The notes below the pieces were generated by a model. That model had not been told where the DNA came from and did not search any database. It saw only the letters and a list, made by a program, of their open reading frames with translations. From positions 1 to 17,458 of the forward strand of contig JAAZNR010000304.1 of NCBI GenBank assembly GCA_012798155.1: a stretch of DNA of 17,458 nucleotides, read 5' to 3'. The position numbers and the translations under genes are program-made. Source of the DNA: Thermogutta sp. GTDB taxonomy: Bacteria > Planctomycetota > Planctomycetia > Pirellulales > Thermoguttaceae. Of this stretch, positions 2,837 through 17,458 are shown piece by piece; the stretch's first letter is position 1; the number at the start of each line of letters is the position of its first letter.

Positions 2837-2860
2837 GAGAAGGTCTAAATGTACCCATGA
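2837..2860 (+). promoter_or_regulatory. Ribosome binding site with three-codon mini-ORF overlapping the fusion start
   Basis: GAGAAGG (2837-2843) lies 5 bases before an ATG at 2849 but 13 bases before the main ATG at 2857. The first ATG opens ATG TAC CCA TGA (Met-Tyr-Pro-stop), and its stop codon overlaps the main start as ATGA. The better-spaced site therefore serves the mini-ORF, so main-gene initiation could be coupled to it. Confidence 0.4.
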
Positions 2861-5800
2861 GTTGTTCCATCGGCAGATTTTTCGTCCCCCCCACCTTTGT
2901 GGACTTGCTCCGCCACCGTGCCGAACATCAACCGGACGACACGGCCTTCATCTATTTGGCCGACGGCGAGAACGAAGAGATTCGTATCACCTACCGAGAG
3001 CTGGACCGTCGCGTTCGGGCGATCGCGGCTTGGCTTGAGTCGCACGGGCTGTGCGGGGAAAGGGTCTTGCTGCTCTATCCGCCGGGGCTGGATTTCATCG
3101 CCGCGTTTTTCGGCTGTTTGTATGCGGGCGCGGTGGCCGTGCCGGTCTATCCGCCCCGCCGCAATCGTTCGCTGGAACGCATCCAGGCGATCTCCGACAA
3201 TGCCCAGGCCAAGGCGGCCCTGACCACGGCCGCGGTTCGGGAGCGTGTGGACGGCGTGATCCATGACACGCCCGACCTCTTGAAACTGAACTGGCTGACC
3301 ACCAGCGAGCAAGAGCCGGCGCCGCCGGATGACTGGAGGCGGCCGGACATCTCAGGCGAGACCCTGGCCTTCTTGCAGTACACCTCCGGATCGACCGGCA
3401 CGCCCAAGGGGGTCATGCTGTCGCACTCCAATTTGATGCACAATTCGGCCCTGATCTGCCATGCCTTCGAGCATCGGCGGTCGGGAACCGGCGTCTATTG
3501 GTTGCCCAGCTATCACGATATGGGCCTCATCGGCGGGATTTTGCAGCCGGTGTTCGTGGGTCGGCCGAACGTCATGATGTCGCCCATGGCCTTCCTGCAA
3601 AAACCCTATCGCTGGCCGGCCGCGATCTCGAAGTATCGCGGCACGACCAGCGGCGGTCCGAACTTCGCCTTCGACCTGTGCGTCCGTTCCATCACCCCGG
3701 AGCAGCGGGAAGGTTTGGATTTGAGTTGCTGGGAAGTAGCCTTCAACGGGGCGGAGCCGGTTCGGGCCGAGACCATCGAGCGTTTCAGCGAGTATTTCGC
3801 CCCTTGCGGCTTCCGGCGCGAGGCGTTCTACCCCTGCTACGGCCTGGCCGAGGCGACCTTGATCGTGACCGGCGGGTTCGTGCGCCAGGCTCCGGTTCTG
3901 CGGCGATTCGAGGCCGAATCCGTGGCCCGGGGCACGCCGCGGCTCACGGAGGACGGCGGTCATCGCGTGCAGACCCTGGTGGGTTGCGGTACGCCCCTGC
4001 CCGACGTGGAAGTGGCCATCGTCGATCCCCAGACCCGTCGCCGGCTGGGCGAGGGCGAAGTCGGCGAGATCTGGGTCCGCGGCCCGAGCGTCGCCCAGGG
4101 CTATTGGAAGAACCCCGACGCCACGGAAGAGACCTTCGGCGGCATCCTCAGCGACTCCGGCGAGGGGCCGTTCATGCGGACGGGCGACCTGGGGTTCCTG
4201 CTGGACGGCGAGTTGTTCGTCACCGGCCGGATCAAGGATATGATCATCGTCCGCGGCGTCAACGTCTATCCGCACGACGTGGAGCGGACGGCCCAGCGGG
4301 CCGACGATCGCCTGCGTCCCAATGCGGGCGCCTGCTTCACCGTCGAGGAGGACGGCCGGGAAAGGCTCGTCTTGATCCAAGAGGTCGAGCGGCACGTCAA
4401 ACAGGGATTCGACGAGATATTTTCAGCCGTGCGCCGCGCCGTTTCCCTCGAACACGAACTCCCCCTGGACGCCGTCGTGCTGATCAAACCGGGGAGCATC
4501 CCGCGGACTTCGAGCAACAAGATTCAGCGGTTCGCCTGCCGCAGAGCCTACTTGGAGGGCACGCTCTCGGTGGTGGCGGAGTGGCGGGCGGGAGCGGCCG
4601 CTCCGGCCGAGGCAACCCCGCCCGGCGGCGCGACGAGCTTGGATTCCCCCGCATCGCTCGCGGCCGCGGAATCGGCCGGGACGGGCGGCAACGGCTCCGT
4701 ACGCGGCGGCATGGAATCGGCCCCCGGCGACGCAACGGGCGGTTTGCAACGGCTCCGGGAACACTTGGCAGCGGCCACGGACGACGCCTGGCAGGCCGCG
4801 GGCGGAGGACATCCCCGCGAGTCAGCCGGGGTCGCGGCCGATACAAGAACCCCCGTCGCGGCCGCCGATCGGCGGCAGATCATCGAGGCCGTGCTGGAAG
4901 AGGTCCGCCGCGTGGGAAAGGATCGCGCCGCCGGGATTACCCTGGATAGCTCCATCGCCGAGTTGGGATTGGATTCCCTGGAACGCATGGAGATTCTGGC
5001 CTCGCTGGAAGAGCGCTTCGGCGGGCGATTCCCCGAGGAGGTCCTCCCCGATTTGGAAACCGCTCGGCAGGTGGTCGAGGCCGTGGAGCGCTACCTGGGC
5101 GGGGGCGGCGTGGAAATCCGCAACCGCACCGCCTTCTTCCAACCCGGCCAGGAAATCCCGCCCGAGTGCTGGGACGTCGAACGCTTTCCCGAATATACGG
5201 CCCTGAAGGAACGCCTTCGCATCTTGGAGGAGGCCGGGCTGGGAAACCCCTTCTTTATGGTGCACGAAGGGATCACCAACGACCGCACCGTCATCGGCGG
5301 GCGAGAGTACATCAACTATTCGAGCTACAACTACCTGGGCATGTCGGGCGATCCCGTGGTGATCCGTGCGGTCCGGGAGGCCGTGGAACGCTACGGGACC
5401 AGCGTCTCCGCCAGCCGCCCGGTCTCCGGCGAAAAGGTCCTGCACGGCGAATTGGAGCGCGGGCTGGCGGAGTTCCTGGGCACCGAGGCCGCCGTGGTCT
5501 TCGTGGGCGGGCACGCCACGAACGAGACCGTGATCGGCCACCTCCTCAAGCCCGGCGACCTGATCCTGCACGACGCCCTGTCCCACAACAGCATCCTTCA
5601 GGGAGCGATCCTCTCGGGCGCGCGGCGCCGCCCCTTCCCGCACAACGACTGGCAGACCGCCGACCGCTTGCTGGAGCGGTTTCGGCACGAGTACCGCCGC
5701 GTGCTGATCGTCGTGGAAGGCGTCTACAGCATGGACGGCGACATCCCCGATCTGCCGCGATTCGTGGAGGTGAAAAAGCGGCACAAGGCCCTGCTGATGG

Positions 5801-6408
5801 TGGACGAGGCCCATTCCATGGGCACGATCGGCGAGACCGGCCGCGGCATCGGCGAGTATCACGCCGTGAATCGCGCCGACGTGGATGTCTGGATGGGGAC
5901 CCTGAGCAAGTCGTTCGGGAGCTGCGGCGGTTTTATCGCGGGCCGCCGGGCCTTGGTGGAGTATCTCAAGTACACCGCCCCCGGCTTCGTCTTCAGCGTC
6001 GGCCTGTCGCCGCCCAATGCGGCCGCGGCCTTGGCTTCGCTCCGCCTCATGCAAAGCGAGCCGCAACGCGTGCGACGCCTGCAGGAAAACGCGGCTTTGT
6101 TCCTGCAACTAGCGCGGCAACACGGGCTGGATACCGGACTGAGCCACGATTCCCCGGTGGTCCCCGTGATCCTGGGCAATTCGCTTCACAGCATGTTGCT
6201 GTCCCTGGCTCTCTTCCGGCGGGGGATCAACGTCCAGCCGATCGTTTACCCGGCCGTGCCGGAGAGTGCCGCGCGGCTGCGCTTCTTCCTCACCGCCAAG
6301 CACAGCGAACGGCAAATCCGCGACACCATCGACGTCTTGTGCGAGGAGATGGACCGCATCGATCCGGCCTATCGCAGTTCGCGGTTGCAGCATTCTTCGG
6401 TGGAGTGA
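2857..6408 (+). CDS. Trifunctional fusion: fatty acyl-AMP ligase, acyl carrier protein, alpha-oxoamine synthase (SPT-like)
   Basis: This 1183-residue protein has three domains. Residues 1-580 are an adenylate-forming ligase: P-loop YTSGSTGTPK at 175-184, FAAL-type WLPSYHDMGLIGG, RTGDLGF near 441, and the A10 lysine K555 in SSNKIQR. A Gly/Ala/Pro-rich linker follows. Residues 671-748 are an acyl carrier protein with phosphopantetheine serine S707 in LGLDSLERM. Residues about 790-1170 are a fold-type I PLP enzyme of the alpha-oxoamine synthase family: H910 stacking on PLP, D983 in DEAHSMG, and Schiff-base K1018 in GTLSKSFGSCGG. The expected reaction is ATP-dependent loading of an acyl chain onto its own carrier, then decarboxylative condensation with an amino acid. 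DEAHS, EGVYSMDGD and the KSFG context resemble serine palmitoyltransferase more than BioF, which usually has DDAHG. All catalytic residues appear intact. Substrate choice is inferred. The protein is probably cytosolic. Confidence 0.88.
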   Translation: MSCSIGRFFVPPTFVDLLRHRAEHQPDDTAFIYLADGENEEIRITYRELDRRVRAIAAWLESHGLCGERVLLLYPPGLDFIAAFFGCLYAGAVAVPVYPPRRNRSLERIQAISDNAQAKAALTTAAVRERVDGVIHDTPDLLKLNWLTTSEQEPAPPDDWRRPDISGETLAFLQYTSGSTGTPKGVMLSHSNLMHNSALICHAFEHRRSGTGVYWLPSYHDMGLIGGILQPVFVGRPNVMMSPMAFLQKPYRWPAAISKYRGTTSGGPNFAFDLCVRSITPEQREGLDLSCWEVAFNGAEPVRAETIERFSEYFAPCGFRREAFYPCYGLAEATLIVTGGFVRQAPVLRRFEAESVARGTPRLTEDGGHRVQTLVGCGTPLPDVEVAIVDPQTRRRLGEGEVGEIWVRGPSVAQGYWKNPDATEETFGGILSDSGEGPFMRTGDLGFLLDGELFVTGRIKDMIIVRGVNVYPHDVERTAQRADDRLRPNAGACFTVEEDGRERLVLIQEVERHVKQGFDEIFSAVRRAVSLEHELPLDAVVLIKPGSIPRTSSNKIQRFACRRAYLEGTLSVVAEWRAGAAAPAEATPPGGATSLDSPASLAAAESAGTGGNGSVRGGMESAPGDATGGLQRLREHLAAATDDAWQAAGGGHPRESAGVAADTRTPVAAADRRQIIEAVLEEVRRVGKDRAAGITLDSSIAELGLDSLERMEILASLEERFGGRFPEEVLPDLETARQVVEAVERYLGGGGVEIRNRTAFFQPGQEIPPECWDVERFPEYTALKERLRILEEAGLGNPFFMVHEGITNDRTVIGGREYINYSSYNYLGMSGDPVVIRAVREAVERYGTSVSASRPVSGEKVLHGELERGLAEFLGTEAAVVFVGGHATNETVIGHLLKPGDLILHDALSHNSILQGAILSGARRRPFPHNDWQTADRLLERFRHEYRRVLIVVEGVYSMDGDIPDLPRFVEVKKRHKALLMVDEAHSMGTIGETGRGIGEYHAVNRADVDVWMGTLSKSFGSCGGFIAGRRALVEYLKYTAPGFVFSVGLSPPNAAAALASLRLMQSEPQRVRRLQENAALFLQLARQHGLDTGLSHDSPVVPVILGNSLHSMLLSLALFRRGINVQPIVYPAVPESAARLRFFLTAKHSERQIRDTIDVLCEEMDRIDPAYRSSRLQHSSVE

Positions 6409-6410
6409 GC

Positions 6411-6607
6411 GACCGGCGTCTGGGGGCTGCGCTTCGCTCCGACCCCAGGCACCCGCTCCGACCCCAGGCACCCGCTTCAACCCCAGGCACCCGCGCAAAT
6501 TCGAGCCGCCGGCGCAAGCCGGCGGTGGATGCCGCGCGAAGACCGGCATCTGGGGGCTGCGCTTCGCTCCGACCCCAGGCACCCGCTTCAACCCCAGGCA
6601 CCCGCCG
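6411..6607 (-). repeat. Composite repeat: two 29-bp modules flanking a tetraloop hairpin, plus short tandem units
   Basis: A 47-base segment at 6411-6457 recurs at 6541-6587 (offset 130) with one mismatch. Each contains a minus-oriented 29-bp module (6420-6448 and 6550-6578) with CTGGGG and CCCCAG ends able to pair. Between them lies a perfect hairpin CCGCCGGC, loop GCAA, GCCGGCGG (6506-6525). The string CCCCAGGCACCCGC recurs five times in imperfect tandem, three times in 6443-6494 and twice in 6573-6604. The cluster may double as a transcript-end structure for the fusion gene. Confidence 0.8.
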
Positions 6608-6818: not shown

Positions 6819-10711
<3,893 letters not shown>

Positions 10712-11356: not shown

Positions 11357-11440
11357 GGTCCCAGCGGCCGGTGCCTTTTCGCGATACGATTTTCACAGCG
11401 TGACGTGAGCCGGCGGCGGAAAGCGCACCATCAACGTGAG

Positions 11441-11528
11441 CCGCCGGCGTAAGCCGGCGGTGGAAGCACTGCGGATACCGGCGTCTGGGGGCGTCGCTCC
11501 GCTCCGACCCCGGCCACCCACTTTTTTT
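11441..11528. repeat. Composite repeat between convergent genes: hairpin, 29-bp module, T7 run
   Basis: A perfect hairpin CCGCCGGC, loop GTAA, GCCGGCGG (11441-11460) is followed by a minus-oriented 29-bp module (11485-11513) and seven T residues (11522-11528). The flanking bases ACCATCAACGTGAG (11427-11440), read on the minus strand, match the tail seen after the hairpin at 17326-17345 with one difference. Confidence 0.8.
11485..11528 (+). terminator. Possible terminator for the small membrane protein gene
   Basis: The CTGGGG...ACCCCGG stem of the 29-bp module is followed by TTTTTTT. The gap of eight bases between stem and T run is longer than in standard intrinsic terminators, so this is weak. 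Confidence 0.25.
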
Positions 11529-11553
11529 GCCCAGCCGGCCGGCCGGGGAGGAA

Positions 11554-13356: not shown

Positions 13357-16300
13357 CTACACGGAGGAATCAGGCTCGTCGCCGCCGGAGGGCGGCGGCG
13401 CATCCTTCTCCGAACCCTCCAAAGTAACGGTAGCGGACGCATCCCCGGCGGACAAGGGCGGCTGGGCGGGAGGATTCGGGCTTTCCGGCGGCGTCCTCTT
13501 TTCCGCATCCGCGGACGCTTGCGGCTCTTCCGCGGGGGGACCGCCGGCGGCCTGCGGCTCCACGTTTTCGGCCGCCGCCCCCGCATGGCGTCCGTCCTGC
13601 TTGTCGTCGCGTGGGCGATCCTTTCCCCGCCCTTGGGGATGACCGCCGCCCTTTTCGGCCGGCGCCGGCCGGGCCCCGCCCTTGGCCGCGAAGTATTGCA
13701 TCAAATCCGAAAAGCTCCGCATCGGCTGCTTGCCTTCCAGGACTTCCTCGCTGATCGGGGCCGGCGGCGCCTTGGAGGACGAGAGACGCTGGGGCAAACG
13801 GACGGGCCGGGAAATCTCGGGGCCGTCGCTGCGGGATGCCCGCCGCTCGTCTCTCTCCGGCCGTTTCTCTTCCCGCGAGTCGGCCTGGCGCGGGGGTCTG
13901 CGCGGCGGACGCTGCCGGTCGCGCCGCTCCCCCGCACGATCTGCGGAACGATCTGCGGCACGATCCCCTGAACGCTCTCCGGAACGAGCTGTGGTACGAT
14001 CCCCGGCCGGCGCGGCCGGCGTTCCGCCGCCGCGGCGTTCCGCCGAACCAGCCTCCGGCCGTGTCCCGGTCCGCGCTCGCCGCGGCGCCGCTCGCCCCTC
14101 GGCGACGGGCGGCGCGCCCTCCGAACGTGCGGCGCGGCGCTCACCCCGCGGACGGCCGCCGCCCCGAGACGGAACCGGCGTGCCGGGCGGCACCATGCTC
14201 AACGACACCCGGCGGCGGGACTTGTCCACCTCCACCACCCACACCCGAACGATGTCGCCGGGCGCGACGACCTCGTGCGGATCGGAGACGAATCGGGCGG
14301 CCATCCGGCTGAGATGGACCAGCCCCGGCTGCTTGACCCCGACGTCCACGAAGGCCCCGAAGTCCACCACGTTCAGGACCATGCCGTTCAATTCCATGCC
14401 CGGCTCCAGGTCCTCCATCTTCAAAACGCCCTTCTTGAAGATGGGCGGGGGGAAGTCTTCGCGGGGGTCCCGTCCGGGGCGCTGCAACTGTTGCAGAATG
14501 TCTCGCAGCAAGAGCGGGCCGCAACCCAACTCCCGCGCCAGGGCCGGCACGTCCAGGGCCGCGATTTTCTCGCTCAGCGGTTGCAAGGTGTCGGGCTGCG
14601 TCAATTGCTCGGGCGAGATGCCCAGCTTCTCCATCACCCGCCGGGCAGGCTCGTAACTTTCGGGATGAATCCACGTGGCATCCAGGGGATTGTCCCCGCC
14701 GGTGATCTTCAAGAATCCGGCCGCCTGGACGAACGTGGCCTCCCCGATGCCGGGAACCTCCTTGAGCTGTTCGCGATTGCGAAACGGCCCATGCTCGCGG
14801 CGATACTCGTAAATCCTCCGCGCGGTGAGTTGGTTCAAACCGGAGACGTAGGTGAGAAGGGCCGGGCTGCCCGTGTTGACATCCACTCCCACAAAGCTCA
14901 CGCACGACTGCACGACCTGATCCAGCGACTGTTCCAGATGCTTTTGCTTGAGGTCGTGCTGGTACAGTCCCACACCCAAGGCGGCGGGTTCGATCTTCAC
15001 CAGTTCGCTGAGAGGATCGAGGAGCCGCCGGCCGATGCAGATCGCGCCGCGGGCGGCGGCGTCGTACTCGGGCAGTTCTTCGCGTCCGATCTGGCTCACG
15101 GAATAGACGCTGGCCCCGGCCTCGTTCACGATCACGTAGGCCGGCCCGCCCTCCTTCCATTCGTTCTCCATCAGCGGGGCCAGGAATTCCTCCGTCTCGC
15201 GGCAGCCCGTGCCGTTGCCCAACGCGATCAGCGTGACGCCGTGCTTCCGCACGATTTCGAGCACGCGCTGCTTGCCGCTCTCAATACGCTCGCTCGACCC
15301 GATGATCGAAAACACCCCGTGGTCCAGAACCTTCCCGTAGGGGTCCAAAACGGCGAACTTGCAACCCTGGCGCAGCCCCGGGTCGATCGCCAGCACCGTA
15401 TGACCGCGGACCGGCGGCTGGAGGAGCAATCGCCGGAGGTTGCGGGCGAAGACCTGAACCGCGTGCGTCTCGGCCTTTTCGTTCAGCTCGCGGCGGATCT
15501 CGCGCTCCAAGGCGGGCAGAATCAACCGCGTCAGGGCCGCCTTCACGCAACCGCGGAGGAACTCCGCATGGGGATGGTCGGGAGGAACGCAAATCTCTTC
15601 CGCGGCCTTTTGCAGGGCCTCCCAATCGGCCTCCAGCCTGACCCGCAAGACCCTTTCCCGCTCCCCGCGATTGATGGCCAGAACTCGATGCGGCGGGATG
15701 GTCCGCACGCTTTCGGAGAAATGGGCATAGTCGGTAAACAAGCGGAGGAACCGCTCCCGCTTCTTGCGCCGCTCTTCTTCCTTGGCCGAGCGGGCCGGCT
15801 TGAGCGGGACGGTGGGCGGTCCGGCGGCGGTGGGCGGTCCGGCGGGAGCGGCCGCGGGAGGGGCAGCGGCAGGTTCGGCCTGCGCGTTTTCCGCAGCAGC
15901 GCCAGGTTCGGCCTGCGCATTTTCCGCGGCCGCGGCAGGTTCGGCCAGGGCGTTTTCCGCCGCCGCCGCTTCGCCCGCCGCGCTTGCCGTCGGTGAAGAC
16001 TCCGGTTCCGGATGCGGGGACGATTCGACCGTCGGGGCGATGCCTTCAGGGGCGTCTGCCGTCGCCGCCTCCTCGGCGTGTTGGCCGCCCTCGGCGAGCA
16101 AGGTCGATCCCTCGGAGGCGGTGGGAGACGCCGCGTCGCCGGGGCCGGAAACGGCCTCGGTTTGCCGGGCCGTCTCCTCCGTCGAAGTCTCCGCCGCGGA
16201 AGGCGCCGCTTGTGGTGCGGCCGGTTCGCCCGCCGCGGGAGCAGACGCAGCCGGAGGAGGCGACAAGGACTTCGCCACCTCTTCCGTCAGCGAGGTGCTG

Positions 16301-16884
16301 ATCTTTCCCGTCTGCATCAGGATATCGCGAAGCCGCCGGCGGAGTTCGGCGTTTTCGCTGAACATCTCGGCCAAAATATGGCCCGCCCCCAGCAAGGCGT
16401 CCGCTCCCGAGGTCACCTGTTTATCGGGGTTGACGTAGTCGGCCGCCCGCCTGTCCAGATCCGCCGCGATGGGGTCCCGGTTGAGAATCTCTTCCGCCAG
16501 ATGATCGAGACCGCGTTCTCGGGCGACGGTCGCCAACGTCTGTTTCTTGGGCTTGAAGGGAAGATAGAGGTCTTCCAGCCGCTTGAGCGTCCGCGCGCCC
16601 AAGATTCGCATGGCCAAGGGGGGCGTCAGTTTGTTCTGCGACTCGATCGAGCGGAGGATGGTCTGCTTCCGCTCGGCCAGTTGCCGCTGCTTGACCAGCC
16701 GTTCGGCGATGGCCAAGACCTTCTCTTCGTCCAGCCCGCCCGTTTGATCCTTACGATAGCGCGTGATGAACGGGATCGTGTTTCCCGCATCGAGCAATTC
16801 CACGACCGCCTGGACCTGCTCGGCGGAGACCTTCAACCCCCAGCTCAATTGCCGCAACGAGATGGTGACTTCCGTGGTAGCCAT
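13357..16884 (-). CDS. tex: Tex-type S1 RNA-binding transcription accessory protein with long insertion and disordered tail
   Basis: Tex binds nucleic acid and RNA polymerase-associated complexes; its exact role is not settled. This 1175-residue version is far longer than the usual 720-790. Residues 1-208 are the helical Tex N-domain (TIPFITRYRKDQTGGLDE, LEDLYLPFKPKKQT). Residues 209-361 are an Ala/Pro/Glu-rich insertion. The N-domain resumes with IPPHRVLAINRGERE. The YqgF/RNase H-like domain starts near 495 (LAIDPGLRQGCKFAV, D501). Helix-hairpin-helix repeats cover about 645-740 (YVSGLNQLTARRIYEYR, EVPGIGEATF). The S1 domain covers about 826-895 (GMVLNVVDFGAFVDVG). Residues 898-1175 form a basic then acidic low-complexity tail. 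The start at 16884 fits the family N terminus, though no strong ribosome site is seen. Confidence 0.93.
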   Translation of the reverse strand: MATTEVTISLRQLSWGLKVSAEQVQAVVELLDAGNTIPFITRYRKDQTGGLDEEKVLAIAERLVKQRQLAERKQTILRSIESQNKLTPPLAMRILGARTLKRLEDLYLPFKPKKQTLATVARERGLDHLAEEILNRDPIAADLDRRAADYVNPDKQVTSGADALLGAGHILAEMFSENAELRRRLRDILMQTGKISTSLTEEVAKSLSPPPAASAPAAGEPAAPQAAPSAAETSTEETARQTEAVSGPGDAASPTASEGSTLLAEGGQHAEEAATADAPEGIAPTVESSPHPEPESSPTASAAGEAAAAENALAEPAAAAENAQAEPGAAAENAQAEPAAAPPAAAPAGPPTAAGPPTVPLKPARSAKEEERRKKRERFLRLFTDYAHFSESVRTIPPHRVLAINRGERERVLRVRLEADWEALQKAAEEICVPPDHPHAEFLRGCVKAALTRLILPALEREIRRELNEKAETHAVQVFARNLRRLLLQPPVRGHTVLAIDPGLRQGCKFAVLDPYGKVLDHGVFSIIGSSERIESGKQRVLEIVRKHGVTLIALGNGTGCRETEEFLAPLMENEWKEGGPAYVIVNEAGASVYSVSQIGREELPEYDAAARGAICIGRRLLDPLSELVKIEPAALGVGLYQHDLKQKHLEQSLDQVVQSCVSFVGVDVNTGSPALLTYVSGLNQLTARRIYEYRREHGPFRNREQLKEVPGIGEATFVQAAGFLKITGGDNPLDATWIHPESYEPARRVMEKLGISPEQLTQPDTLQPLSEKIAALDVPALARELGCGPLLLRDILQQLQRPGRDPREDFPPPIFKKGVLKMEDLEPGMELNGMVLNVVDFGAFVDVGVKQPGLVHLSRMAARFVSDPHEVVAPGDIVRVWVVEVDKSRRRVSLSMVPPGTPVPSRGGGRPRGERRAARSEGAPPVAEGRAAPRRARTGTRPEAGSAERRGGGTPAAPAGDRTTARSGERSGDRAADRSADRAGERRDRQRPPRRPPRQADSREEKRPERDERRASRSDGPEISRPVRLPQRLSSSKAPPAPISEEVLEGKQPMRSFSDLMQYFAAKGGARPAPAEKGGGHPQGRGKDRPRDDKQDGRHAGAAAENVEPQAAGGPPAEEPQASADAEKRTPPESPNPPAQPPLSAGDASATVTLEGSEKDAPPPSGGDEPDSSV
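13925..14008 (-). repeat. 12-bp tandem repeat, seven copies, in the tex tail
   Basis: Seven consecutive 12-base units run from 13925 to 14008, with forms such as CGATCTGCGGAA and CGATCTGCGGCA. They encode a four-residue period of the type D/E-R-x-x (for example DRAADRSADRAGER) at about residues 959-987. Units differ by substitution but keep the acidic-Arg pair. Confidence 0.85.
15871..15969 (-). repeat. 33-bp tandem repeat, three copies, in the tex insertion
   Basis: Units start at 15871, 15904 and 15937, each beginning AGGTTCGGCC, with a strict 33-bp period. They encode three 11-residue repeats of the form AAAENAxAEP(A/G) at about residues 306-338. Confidence 0.9.
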
Positions 16885-17109: not shown

Positions 17110-17161
17110 GAGTTCGGAAGGGGCCGGGAAAACGGGAGTTCGGAAGGGGGCAGAAAAACGG
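17110..17161 (+). repeat. 26-bp tandem repeat, two copies
   Basis: Two adjacent 26-base units (17110-17135 and 17136-17161), both starting GAGTTCGGAAGGGG and ending AAACGG, differ at about four positions. Confidence 0.85.
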
Positions 17162-17222
17162 GCGTCCGGGGGCTCCGCTCCGCGACACCCCGGCCACCTG
17201 GCCCAATCCCCGGCCACCGGCT

Positions 17223-17458
17223 GGGTGGCTGGGGACGAAGCGTAGCGAAGCCCCCAGACAGCCGTCTCCCCGTTGCAGCCACCGCCGGCTTACGCCGGCG
17301 GCTCACATTGGATTGCGCTATAACACCACCAGCTTACGCCGGTGGCTCACGTTGATAGTGCGTTTTCCACCCGCTGGGTGGCTGGGGTCCTCCGGGTGGC
17401 TGGGGACGCAGCGTAGCGCAGCCCCCAGACAGCCGTCTCCCCGTTGCACCCACCGCCA
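17223..17458 (+). repeat. 171-bp tandem array with 29-bp modules and tetraloop hairpins, truncated by window end
   Basis: The segment 17223-17286 recurs at 17394-17457 (offset 171) with a few differences and continues past the edge. Each starts GGGTGGCTGGGGACG and contains a plus-oriented 29-bp module (17229-17257; 17400-17428). Between them are two hairpins: CCGCCGGC-TTAC-GCCGGCGG (17282-17301) and CCACCAGC-TTAC-GCCGGTGG (17326-17345). The second is followed by GGCTCACGTTGATAGTGCG (17344-17362). Confidence 0.85.
17376..17405 (+). other. G-quadruplex-type motif
   Basis: Four runs of three or four G are separated by loops of 5, 6 and 5 bases (17376-17405). This fits the G3+N1-7 pattern. It arises where two GGGTGGCTGGGG module ends abut. 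Confidence 0.5.

Follow-up and report, generated by a model that had tools for sequence, protein, structure and literature searches.

The start of sphingolipid synthesis through an acyl-ACP synthetase, a special acyl carrier protein (ACP) and a serine palmitoyltransferase (SPT), with acyl-ACP dependence of the SPT, was reported from experiments in Rhodobacteria, and the genes of this tripartite system were given as CC_1165, CC_1163 and CC_1162 in Caulobacter and as ECD_02851, ECD_02853 and ECD_02854 in E. coli BL21 (PMC9386255). In the present analysis, a stretch of 17,458 nucleotides of Thermogutta sp. (contig JAAZNR010000304.1, hereafter the window), which is contig 565 of a genome of 4.29 Mb with 88% completeness (G000), was found to contain a gene whose product carries a fatty acyl-AMP ligase (FAAL) domain followed by an ACP domain and an alpha-oxoamine synthase (AONS) domain in one chain. 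With a probability of about 0.7, this fusion is regarded as an SPT-like start of ceramide-type lipid synthesis that was assembled independently in one polypeptide. The three-part start is known, and the new element here would be the presence of all three parts in one chain with a different ligase and a different AONS clade. No fused FAAL-ACP-AONS or SPT in Planctomycetota was found to be described in the titles and abstracts listed by searches of the open-access literature, which mostly leave subscription papers outside.

Comparison with described systems

The fusion, by its domains, shares with the AasR-AcpR-Spt system of Rhodobacteria the three activities, their logical order and the presence of a ceramide synthase homolog in the genome. 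However, it is one polypeptide instead of three, its FAAL domain is only 34-36% identical to the AasR-type ligases of E. coli and Roseomonas, and its AONS domain is 36% identical to E. coli SPT and belongs to another clade. With the model of the AasR-type ligase subfamily (PRK09192, NF006624) the fusion scored 379 against a cut-off of 600, whereas the Roseomonas ligase scored 807. The closest solved structure of the FAAL domain was the FAAL of the Synechococcus olefin synthase (7r7e/f/g), residues 12-577 being colinear with 7r7e at 644 bits, with 51% identity in the Foldseek search; mutants of this FAAL were solved with stearoyl- and palmitoyl-adenylate. The Synechococcus FAAL is one part of an olefin synthase, a polyketide synthase (PKS), without a linked AONS.

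Because the FAAL domain is closer to the olefin-synthase FAAL than to the AasR-type ligases, the fusion seems to have been assembled independently from PKS-type parts. It is taken to do in one chain the work of AasR-AcpR-Spt while standing outside the known families of bacterial SPT. The preliminary description of this DNA had called it the fused equivalent of AasR-AcpR-Spt, which probably holds for the function but not for the origin, since the ligase domain belongs with the FAALs of PKS and olefin synthases and the AONS lies apart from bacterial SPT.

The same AONS clade was also represented at the end of KS-AT-DH-ER-KR-ACP chains, in Planktothrix and the planctomycete genome G121, and in S. 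meliloti by a free-standing protein next to a fatty acid synthase (FAS)/PKS. The terminal AONS of the PKS on a Planktothrix plasmid (L208) is 58% identical and, as in the 2555-residue protein of G121, is fused behind an ACP, but that protein reads KS-AT-DH-ER-KR-ACP-AONS and contains no FAAL. The AONS of the S. meliloti pSymB capsule locus (L209) is 48% identical and falls in the same clade (support 100/97), whereas its acyl chain comes from a type I FAS/PKS, the proteins are separate and the context is that of capsule genes. L209 is presumably a locus of the RkpA-RkpG-RkpH type, although its record does not use the rkp names.

Domain organisation and catalytic residues

The fusion was found to be encoded by a single open frame with zero internal stops. 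Its ligase part contained the Pfam domains AMP-binding PF00501 at residues 18-417 (261 bits, cut-off 29.9) and PF23024 at residues 461-573 (39 bits, cut-off 27), followed by the presence of the carrier domain PP-binding PF00550 (38.8 bits, cut-off 20.8) and of Aminotran_1_2 PF00155 at residues 817-1160 (161.6 bits, cut-off 19.7). The lysine K555 was found in TSSNKIQRF, the serine S707 in GLDSLER and the lysine K1018 in TLSKSFG, and none of the three varied among 22 aligned full-length sequences, the window protein being one of these; the three domains, the intact residues and the numbering given in the preliminary description were thus borne out. K555 is presumably the A10-type lysine of the ligase, and the window protein contained N554 in place of the G of the homolog consensus SSGKIQR. 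The carrier domain contained its serine in a GxDS motif, and D983, H986, K1018 and R1142 of the PF00155 domain were found to align with solved alpha-oxoamine synthases. The AlphaFold2 model of the whole protein was poor (mean pLDDT, the predicted local confidence, 68.7; pTM, the predicted fold score, 0.46) and was used solely for the fold search against the PDB with Foldseek.

Phylogenetic position of the synthase domain

In the PDB the AONS domain matched LCB2a best, at 241 bits, ahead of serine palmitoyltransferase 2 at 233 bits and of a thermophilic BioF/KBL-type enzyme and a Sphingobacterium SPT (230 bits each). The organisms of the PDB chains include Arabidopsis, human, Thermus and S. wittichii. 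In the comparison with NCBIfam, for which 25 of 119 models were shown, none of the AONS models in those 25 was reached at its cut-off by the fusion, with about 350-354 against 426 bits for BioF (TIGR00858), 237 against 493 and 299 against 460 for KBL, and 249 against 339 for ALAS.

A first AONS tree contained 89 rows, and a second contained 60 rows, 30 having been dropped by hand and E. coli SPT added. The dropped rows were long branches, near relatives of kept rows and some others, among them a divergent fusion AONS (L175) which stood at the base of the fusion clade in the 89-row tree; the two trees agreed in the overall picture. In the 60-row tree the fusion AONS was found in a clade of 28 rows (96/94) and was grouped with the RkpG-like enzyme of L209 and with the Planktothrix AONS of L208. 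The eukaryotic LCB2 paired with the fusion clade with a moderate support of 89/81, and of 86 in the 89-row tree by the approximate likelihood ratio test SH-aLRT. The fusion AONS also shares EAHS with LCB2/SPTLC2 and KSFGSCGG with the LCB2a chain, but it is tethered to an ACP, whereas LCB2 is the membrane-bound partner of LCB1 and uses acyl-CoA. The phylogeny, which the preliminary description had proposed as a check, placed the domain apart from the clades of BioF, KBL, ALAS, CFAT/SulA and the known bacterial SPT.

The groups for the approximately unbiased (AU) test were chosen after the first tree, the BioF and SPT alternatives having been named earlier in the preliminary description. A forced grouping with BioF was rejected (p 0.007), a forced grouping with bacterial SPT without LCB2 was weakly rejected (p 0.027), and a forced grouping with bacterial SPT plus LCB2 was not rejected (p 0.164). 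The fusion is not BioF, and both the cut-offs and the tree place it outside the known families of bacterial SPT. Two motifs, DEAHSMG at residues 983-989 and EGVYSMDGD at 954-962, had been read earlier as favouring SPT over BioF. DEAHS is indeed common to the fusion, LCB2, E. coli SPT and Roseomonas SPT, but EGVYSMDGD does not discriminate, as E. coli BioF contains EGVFSMDGD. At the position of Lys281 of SulA, for which an active-site role is reported (PMC9304779), the fusion was found to contain V1048.

Distribution of the fusion and its relatives

A homolog search scored 7,990 proteins, and all of the best 120, which are listed, contained PF00501, PF00550 and PF00155 (identity 61-91% over the aligned part), so an assembly error does not account for the fusion. 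The copy in the same-genus genome G164 is 75% identical. The named near full-length homologs among these 120 were from Planctomycetota (Thermogutta, Thermoguttaceae, Pirellulales and Planctomycetaceae); further matches were one fusion in a Bacteroidetes metagenome-assembled genome (MAG) and one partial protein labelled Actinomyce(...). Across 57 genomes of the window's order, a hand count gave at least 46 whose AONS lies in a frame of 1100 residues or longer, including G190 with its divergent AONS, and a BioF above cut-off was found in at least 43. The fusion AONS was more conserved than BioF, with a median pairwise identity of 69.5% against 59.3% and a higher value in 175 of 210 pairs (21 genomes). 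In a phylum-wide sample of 149 genomes, FAAL and AONS occurred in one frame at E<1e-180 only in the window's genome and in G121, a genome of the same order, among the matches listed, and in G097 a separate frame encoded an AONS with 60% identity. Outside the window's class, family f28 was found to carry a synthase from the clade of the fusion AONS behind another, NRPS-like (nonribosomal peptide synthetase-like) adenylation-carrier unit (L017, L018 and L020), whose adenylation domain was 22% identical to the FAAL in L020 and gave no match in L017 and L018, and whose carrier motif was GGDSL.

Genus g127 (G190 with L175; G201, contig C33; G253, contig C4) was found to have kept the FAAL at 59-64% identity, while the AONS was 36% identical in G190 and G201; this divergence may reflect domain exchange or rapid change. 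Four ACP-AONS paralogs (L201, L202, L203 and L207) contained Ala or Thr in place of the phosphopantetheine serine (GIDA, GIDT, DVDA), and the pyridoxal phosphate (PLP) lysine was retained in the two that were checked, L201 and L202. The carrier of such a paralog would not be loadable and is perhaps a partner subunit.

The Bacteroidetes MAG contained its own FAAL-ACP-AONS fusion (L080, 8246-11875), whose AONS is sister to SulA/CFAT and carries the SulA-type active-site lysine; it is possibly an independently fused one-protein start of sulfonolipid synthesis. Separate AONS proteins of three family-mates, G164, G201 and G190 (L188, 1598-2998; L190, 1738-2970; L191, 1665-2945), were also sister to the CFAT group with the SulA-type lysine, and sulfonolipid synthesis in Planctomycetota is possible on this ground.

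Co-distribution with bacterial ceramide synthase

The bacterial ceramide synthase (bCerS) query was a Roseomonas protein of the GNAT type, encoded in a sphingolipid locus (L224) and 46% identical to E. coli YghO. Under the name aca, for an N-acyltransferase, YghO was paired with Caulobacter CC_1154 (PMC9386255), and CC_1154 was reported to be needed for dihydroceramide formation (PMC11324152). Homologs of bCerS/YghO were found in 50 of the 57 genomes of the order, with a best E per genome of 5e-44 to 4e-97, and the seven genomes without one all lacked the fusion and all contained a BioF above cut-off. In the window's genome two tandem homologs, 33-36% identical to YghO and to the Roseomonas query, were found on another contig (C416, L235). 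The preliminary description had named ceramide synthase and ketosphinganine reductase as genes to look for: homologs of the former were present in the organism's own genome and across the order, co-distributed with the AONS, whereas the reductase search gave no CerR homolog at E<=1e-20 in the window's genome.

Co-distribution was scored in 196 genomes with thresholds of E<=1e-100 for the AONS, fused or not, and E<=1e-25 for bCerS, in a two-by-two table made by hand from the match tables, elimination supplying 3 of the 23 zero rows for bCerS and 11 of the 31 for the AONS. Both genes were found in 160 genomes, the AONS only in 5, bCerS only in 13 and neither in 18 (Fisher p 3.8e-13, kinship ignored); for the 158 better genomes the same counts were 139, 1, 8 and 10 (p 2.3e-10, kinship ignored). 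The 18 genomes with neither gene are spread over 5 families and 9 genera, and 4 of the families also include genera with both genes. Among the genomes with bCerS only, G190, G201 and G253 of genus g127 contained the related FAAL in a frame of 1236-1259 residues, G175, G213, G241 and G321 contained the FAAL part in a shorter frame, and G149 contained another AONS beside bCerS, the remaining ones being G187, G212, G245, G278 and G324. G208 was counted as AONS-negative, yet a fusion fragment was present at a contig start. A related FAAL was kept in 6 of 8 bCerS-negative genomes examined, inside frames of about 2,700 or 5,100 residues.

Eight genomes (G151, G165, G168, G169, G182, G192, G197 and G202), all with bCerS, were found to contain at E<=1e-20 one BioF and the fusion as their only AONS among the matches listed. 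As the only other AONS is BioF, the fusion is there the only visible candidate supplier of the long-chain base. In G176 the fusion and bCerS genes were tail to tail; bCerS neighbourhoods were not conserved in 24 loci, and a CerR-like gene adjoined bCerS, by coordinates, in 9 genomes. Four bCerS-adjacent AONS (L192, L193, L195 and L197) formed a clade of their own (support 100, 89-row tree), and on contig C5 of G185 an AONS, bCerS and a CerR-like gene were found together. An ORF of the NAD-epimerase family (L235, 5454-6404) was present directly upstream of the two bCerS copies of the window's genome, with no clustered counterpart in the other fetched bCerS loci, and is a candidate reductase.

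Gene surroundings and features of the window

The neighbourhood of the fusion was compared in 62 loci, the window's among them, with clusters 1-10 and 13 annotated through one representative each. The conserved neighbours were enolase (13 loci), riboflavin synthase (13) and RsmA (16) on one side and a BBP7 porin (29) and a TIM-barrel protein (15) on the other, and pssA (cluster 13) was near the fusion in 6 of the 62. No PKS was found in the 7 scanned of 16 neighbouring ORFs of at least 1000 residues, which were GEVED/Calx-beta, WD40 (twice), FtsK, SecA, ABC-2 and LptD_N-like proteins, and no capsule gene was found in these 7 or in the 11 annotated conserved clusters, single shorter neighbours being outside the annotation. 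An explanation of the function through a gene cluster was rejected, the conserved neighbours being housekeeping or unrelated. The coordinates of the fusion are given in Table 1.

The flanks of the fusion in the window contained a MatE-like fragment, a malectin-domain protein, BioD (dethiobiotin synthase, 10031-10711) and others, and bioB was found on contig 632 of the same genome. An S1-domain protein of 1175 residues, which we take to be Tex-like, was present on the reverse strand at 13357-16884, with long Ala/Pro-rich and basic low-complexity stretches. Dispersed, largely intergenic repeats were found at 1926-2345, 6411-6605, 11432-11540 and 17157-17457, with the core CTGGGGGCTGCGCTTCGCTCCGACCCC and matches of 35-164 nt in both orientations.

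Table 1. Coordinates in the window of the fusion gene, its domains and its predicted catalytic residues.
Feature	Position	Strand	Evidence
CDS, FAAL-ACP-AONS fusion, 1183 aa	2857..6408	+	translation, Pfam, homologs, alignment
FAAL domain, about aa 14-577	2896..4587	+	PF00501, PF23024, 7r7e match, Foldseek
K555, ligase C-terminal lysine	4519..4521	+	position check, 22-sequence alignment
Ala/Gly-rich linker, about aa 588-670	4618..4866	+	sequence; pLDDT <50 over 580-634 and 636-670
ACP domain, aa 678-743	4888..5085	+	PF00550, 38.8 bits
S707, predicted phosphopantetheine attachment serine (GLDSL)	4975..4977	+	position check, 22-sequence alignment
AONS (SPT-like) domain, about aa 782-1170	5200..6366	+	PF00155, PDB matches, tree
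K1018, PLP Schiff-base lysine	5908..5910	+	position check, alignments

Proposed pathway and alternative explanations

The pathway, including each reaction, the chain length, the use of serine and the final lipid, is predicted from the sequence features described above. The FAAL domain would adenylate a free long-chain fatty acid, likely of C16-C18 by similarity to the olefin-synthase FAAL, and the phosphopantetheine arm at S707 of the tethered ACP would take over the acyl group. Through K1018 and its PLP, the AONS would catalyse a decarboxylative condensation in which the acyl-ACP and an amino acid (L-serine being the likeliest) give CO2 and a 3-keto long-chain base. The unlinked bCerS (YghO family, two tandem copies) would N-acylate the base, and its ketone would be reduced by some reductase.

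Several results weigh against an SPT-like entry to ceramide. The bacterial SPT models NF047599, NF047600 and NF047603 were below cut-off (284 against 500, 299 against 640 and 240 against 670 bits), and the nearest bacterial relatives of the AONS are a capsule-locus enzyme and a PKS domain. The Fisher test on co-distribution ignores kinship, and 5 AONS-only and 13 bCerS-only genomes of the 196 were discordant. In at least 7 of the 57 genomes of the order (G149, G166, G171, G177, G183, G185 and G193) another AONS adjoins bCerS by coordinates, which means that bCerS could do without the fusion in these genomes. CerR homologs at E<=1e-20 were found in only 21 of the 57 genomes, the window's not being among them, and the conserved gene clusters annotated around the fusion have housekeeping or unrelated roles, none of them being shared by the window's flanks.

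The same relatives fit a 3-keto-amino lipid made outside the ceramide route, such as an RkpG-type anchor lipid for polysaccharide at the cell surface or a specialised aminolipid of a PKS-like kind, and an AONS of the same type was present on the PKS of G121, as was an AONS in a 2586-residue frame of G179. This product is nevertheless considered unlikely, as the annotated clusters and scanned long neighbours of the 62 loci contained no capsule or PKS gene and the AONS was co-distributed with bCerS. Still less probable is the use of alanine or glycine in place of serine on the same route, which would give 1-deoxy-type bases. The sequence does not fix the amino acid, no compared residue separating serine from alanine, and in a Black Sea study (PMC11334938) the use of alanine by Spt was stated and that of lysine hypothesised, but the EAHS motif and the overall class of the fusion are those of LCB2 and E. 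coli SPT.

A role of the fusion as the BioF of the organism, with activation of pimelate and its condensation with alanine for biotin, was tempting in view of bioD, bioB and the fusion as the single AONS match in G000. It is rejected as highly improbable, since the same-genus genome G164 contained a separate BioF above cut-off (438.7 bits) and the tree excludes such a placement; moreover, G000 is incomplete, the fusion scored under the BioF cut-off, and the seven bCerS-negative genomes of the order contained BioF without the fusion. A sulfonolipid base formed from cysteate, as by SulA/CFAT, shares the fold and has SulA-like AONS proteins in three family-mates on its side, but is scarcely credible with the fusion outside the CFAT clade and with V1048 at the position of the SulA lysine.

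Starting from an SPT-like entry to ceramide-type lipids, a wider proposal may be made, although it is held as doubtful. In most of a Planctomycetota order, ceramide synthesis would begin with one polypeptide, its catalytic domain being related by descent to eukaryotic LCB2 and not to the known bacterial SPTs, and the AONS clade would be a portable module on varied acyl suppliers (FAAL-ACP, PKS/FAS-ACP and NRPS-like adenylation-carrier units), forming the bacterial side of eukaryotic SPT.

Significance

Sphingolipid production by planctomycetes was inferred in a metagenomic study from Spt-like genes in 138 Planctomycetota MAGs (PMC11334938). The predicted, conserved single-gene entry, together with the co-distributed ceramide synthase homolog, turns this into a lipid prediction that is testable in a cultured relative, and the fusion, by its predicted activity, would offer a one-protein in vitro route from a free fatty acid to a 3-keto base. 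Gene finding through SPT cut-offs or gene clusters can miss such a lineage, and the fusion clade would widen the set of bacterial sequences that are relevant to the origin of eukaryotic SPT.

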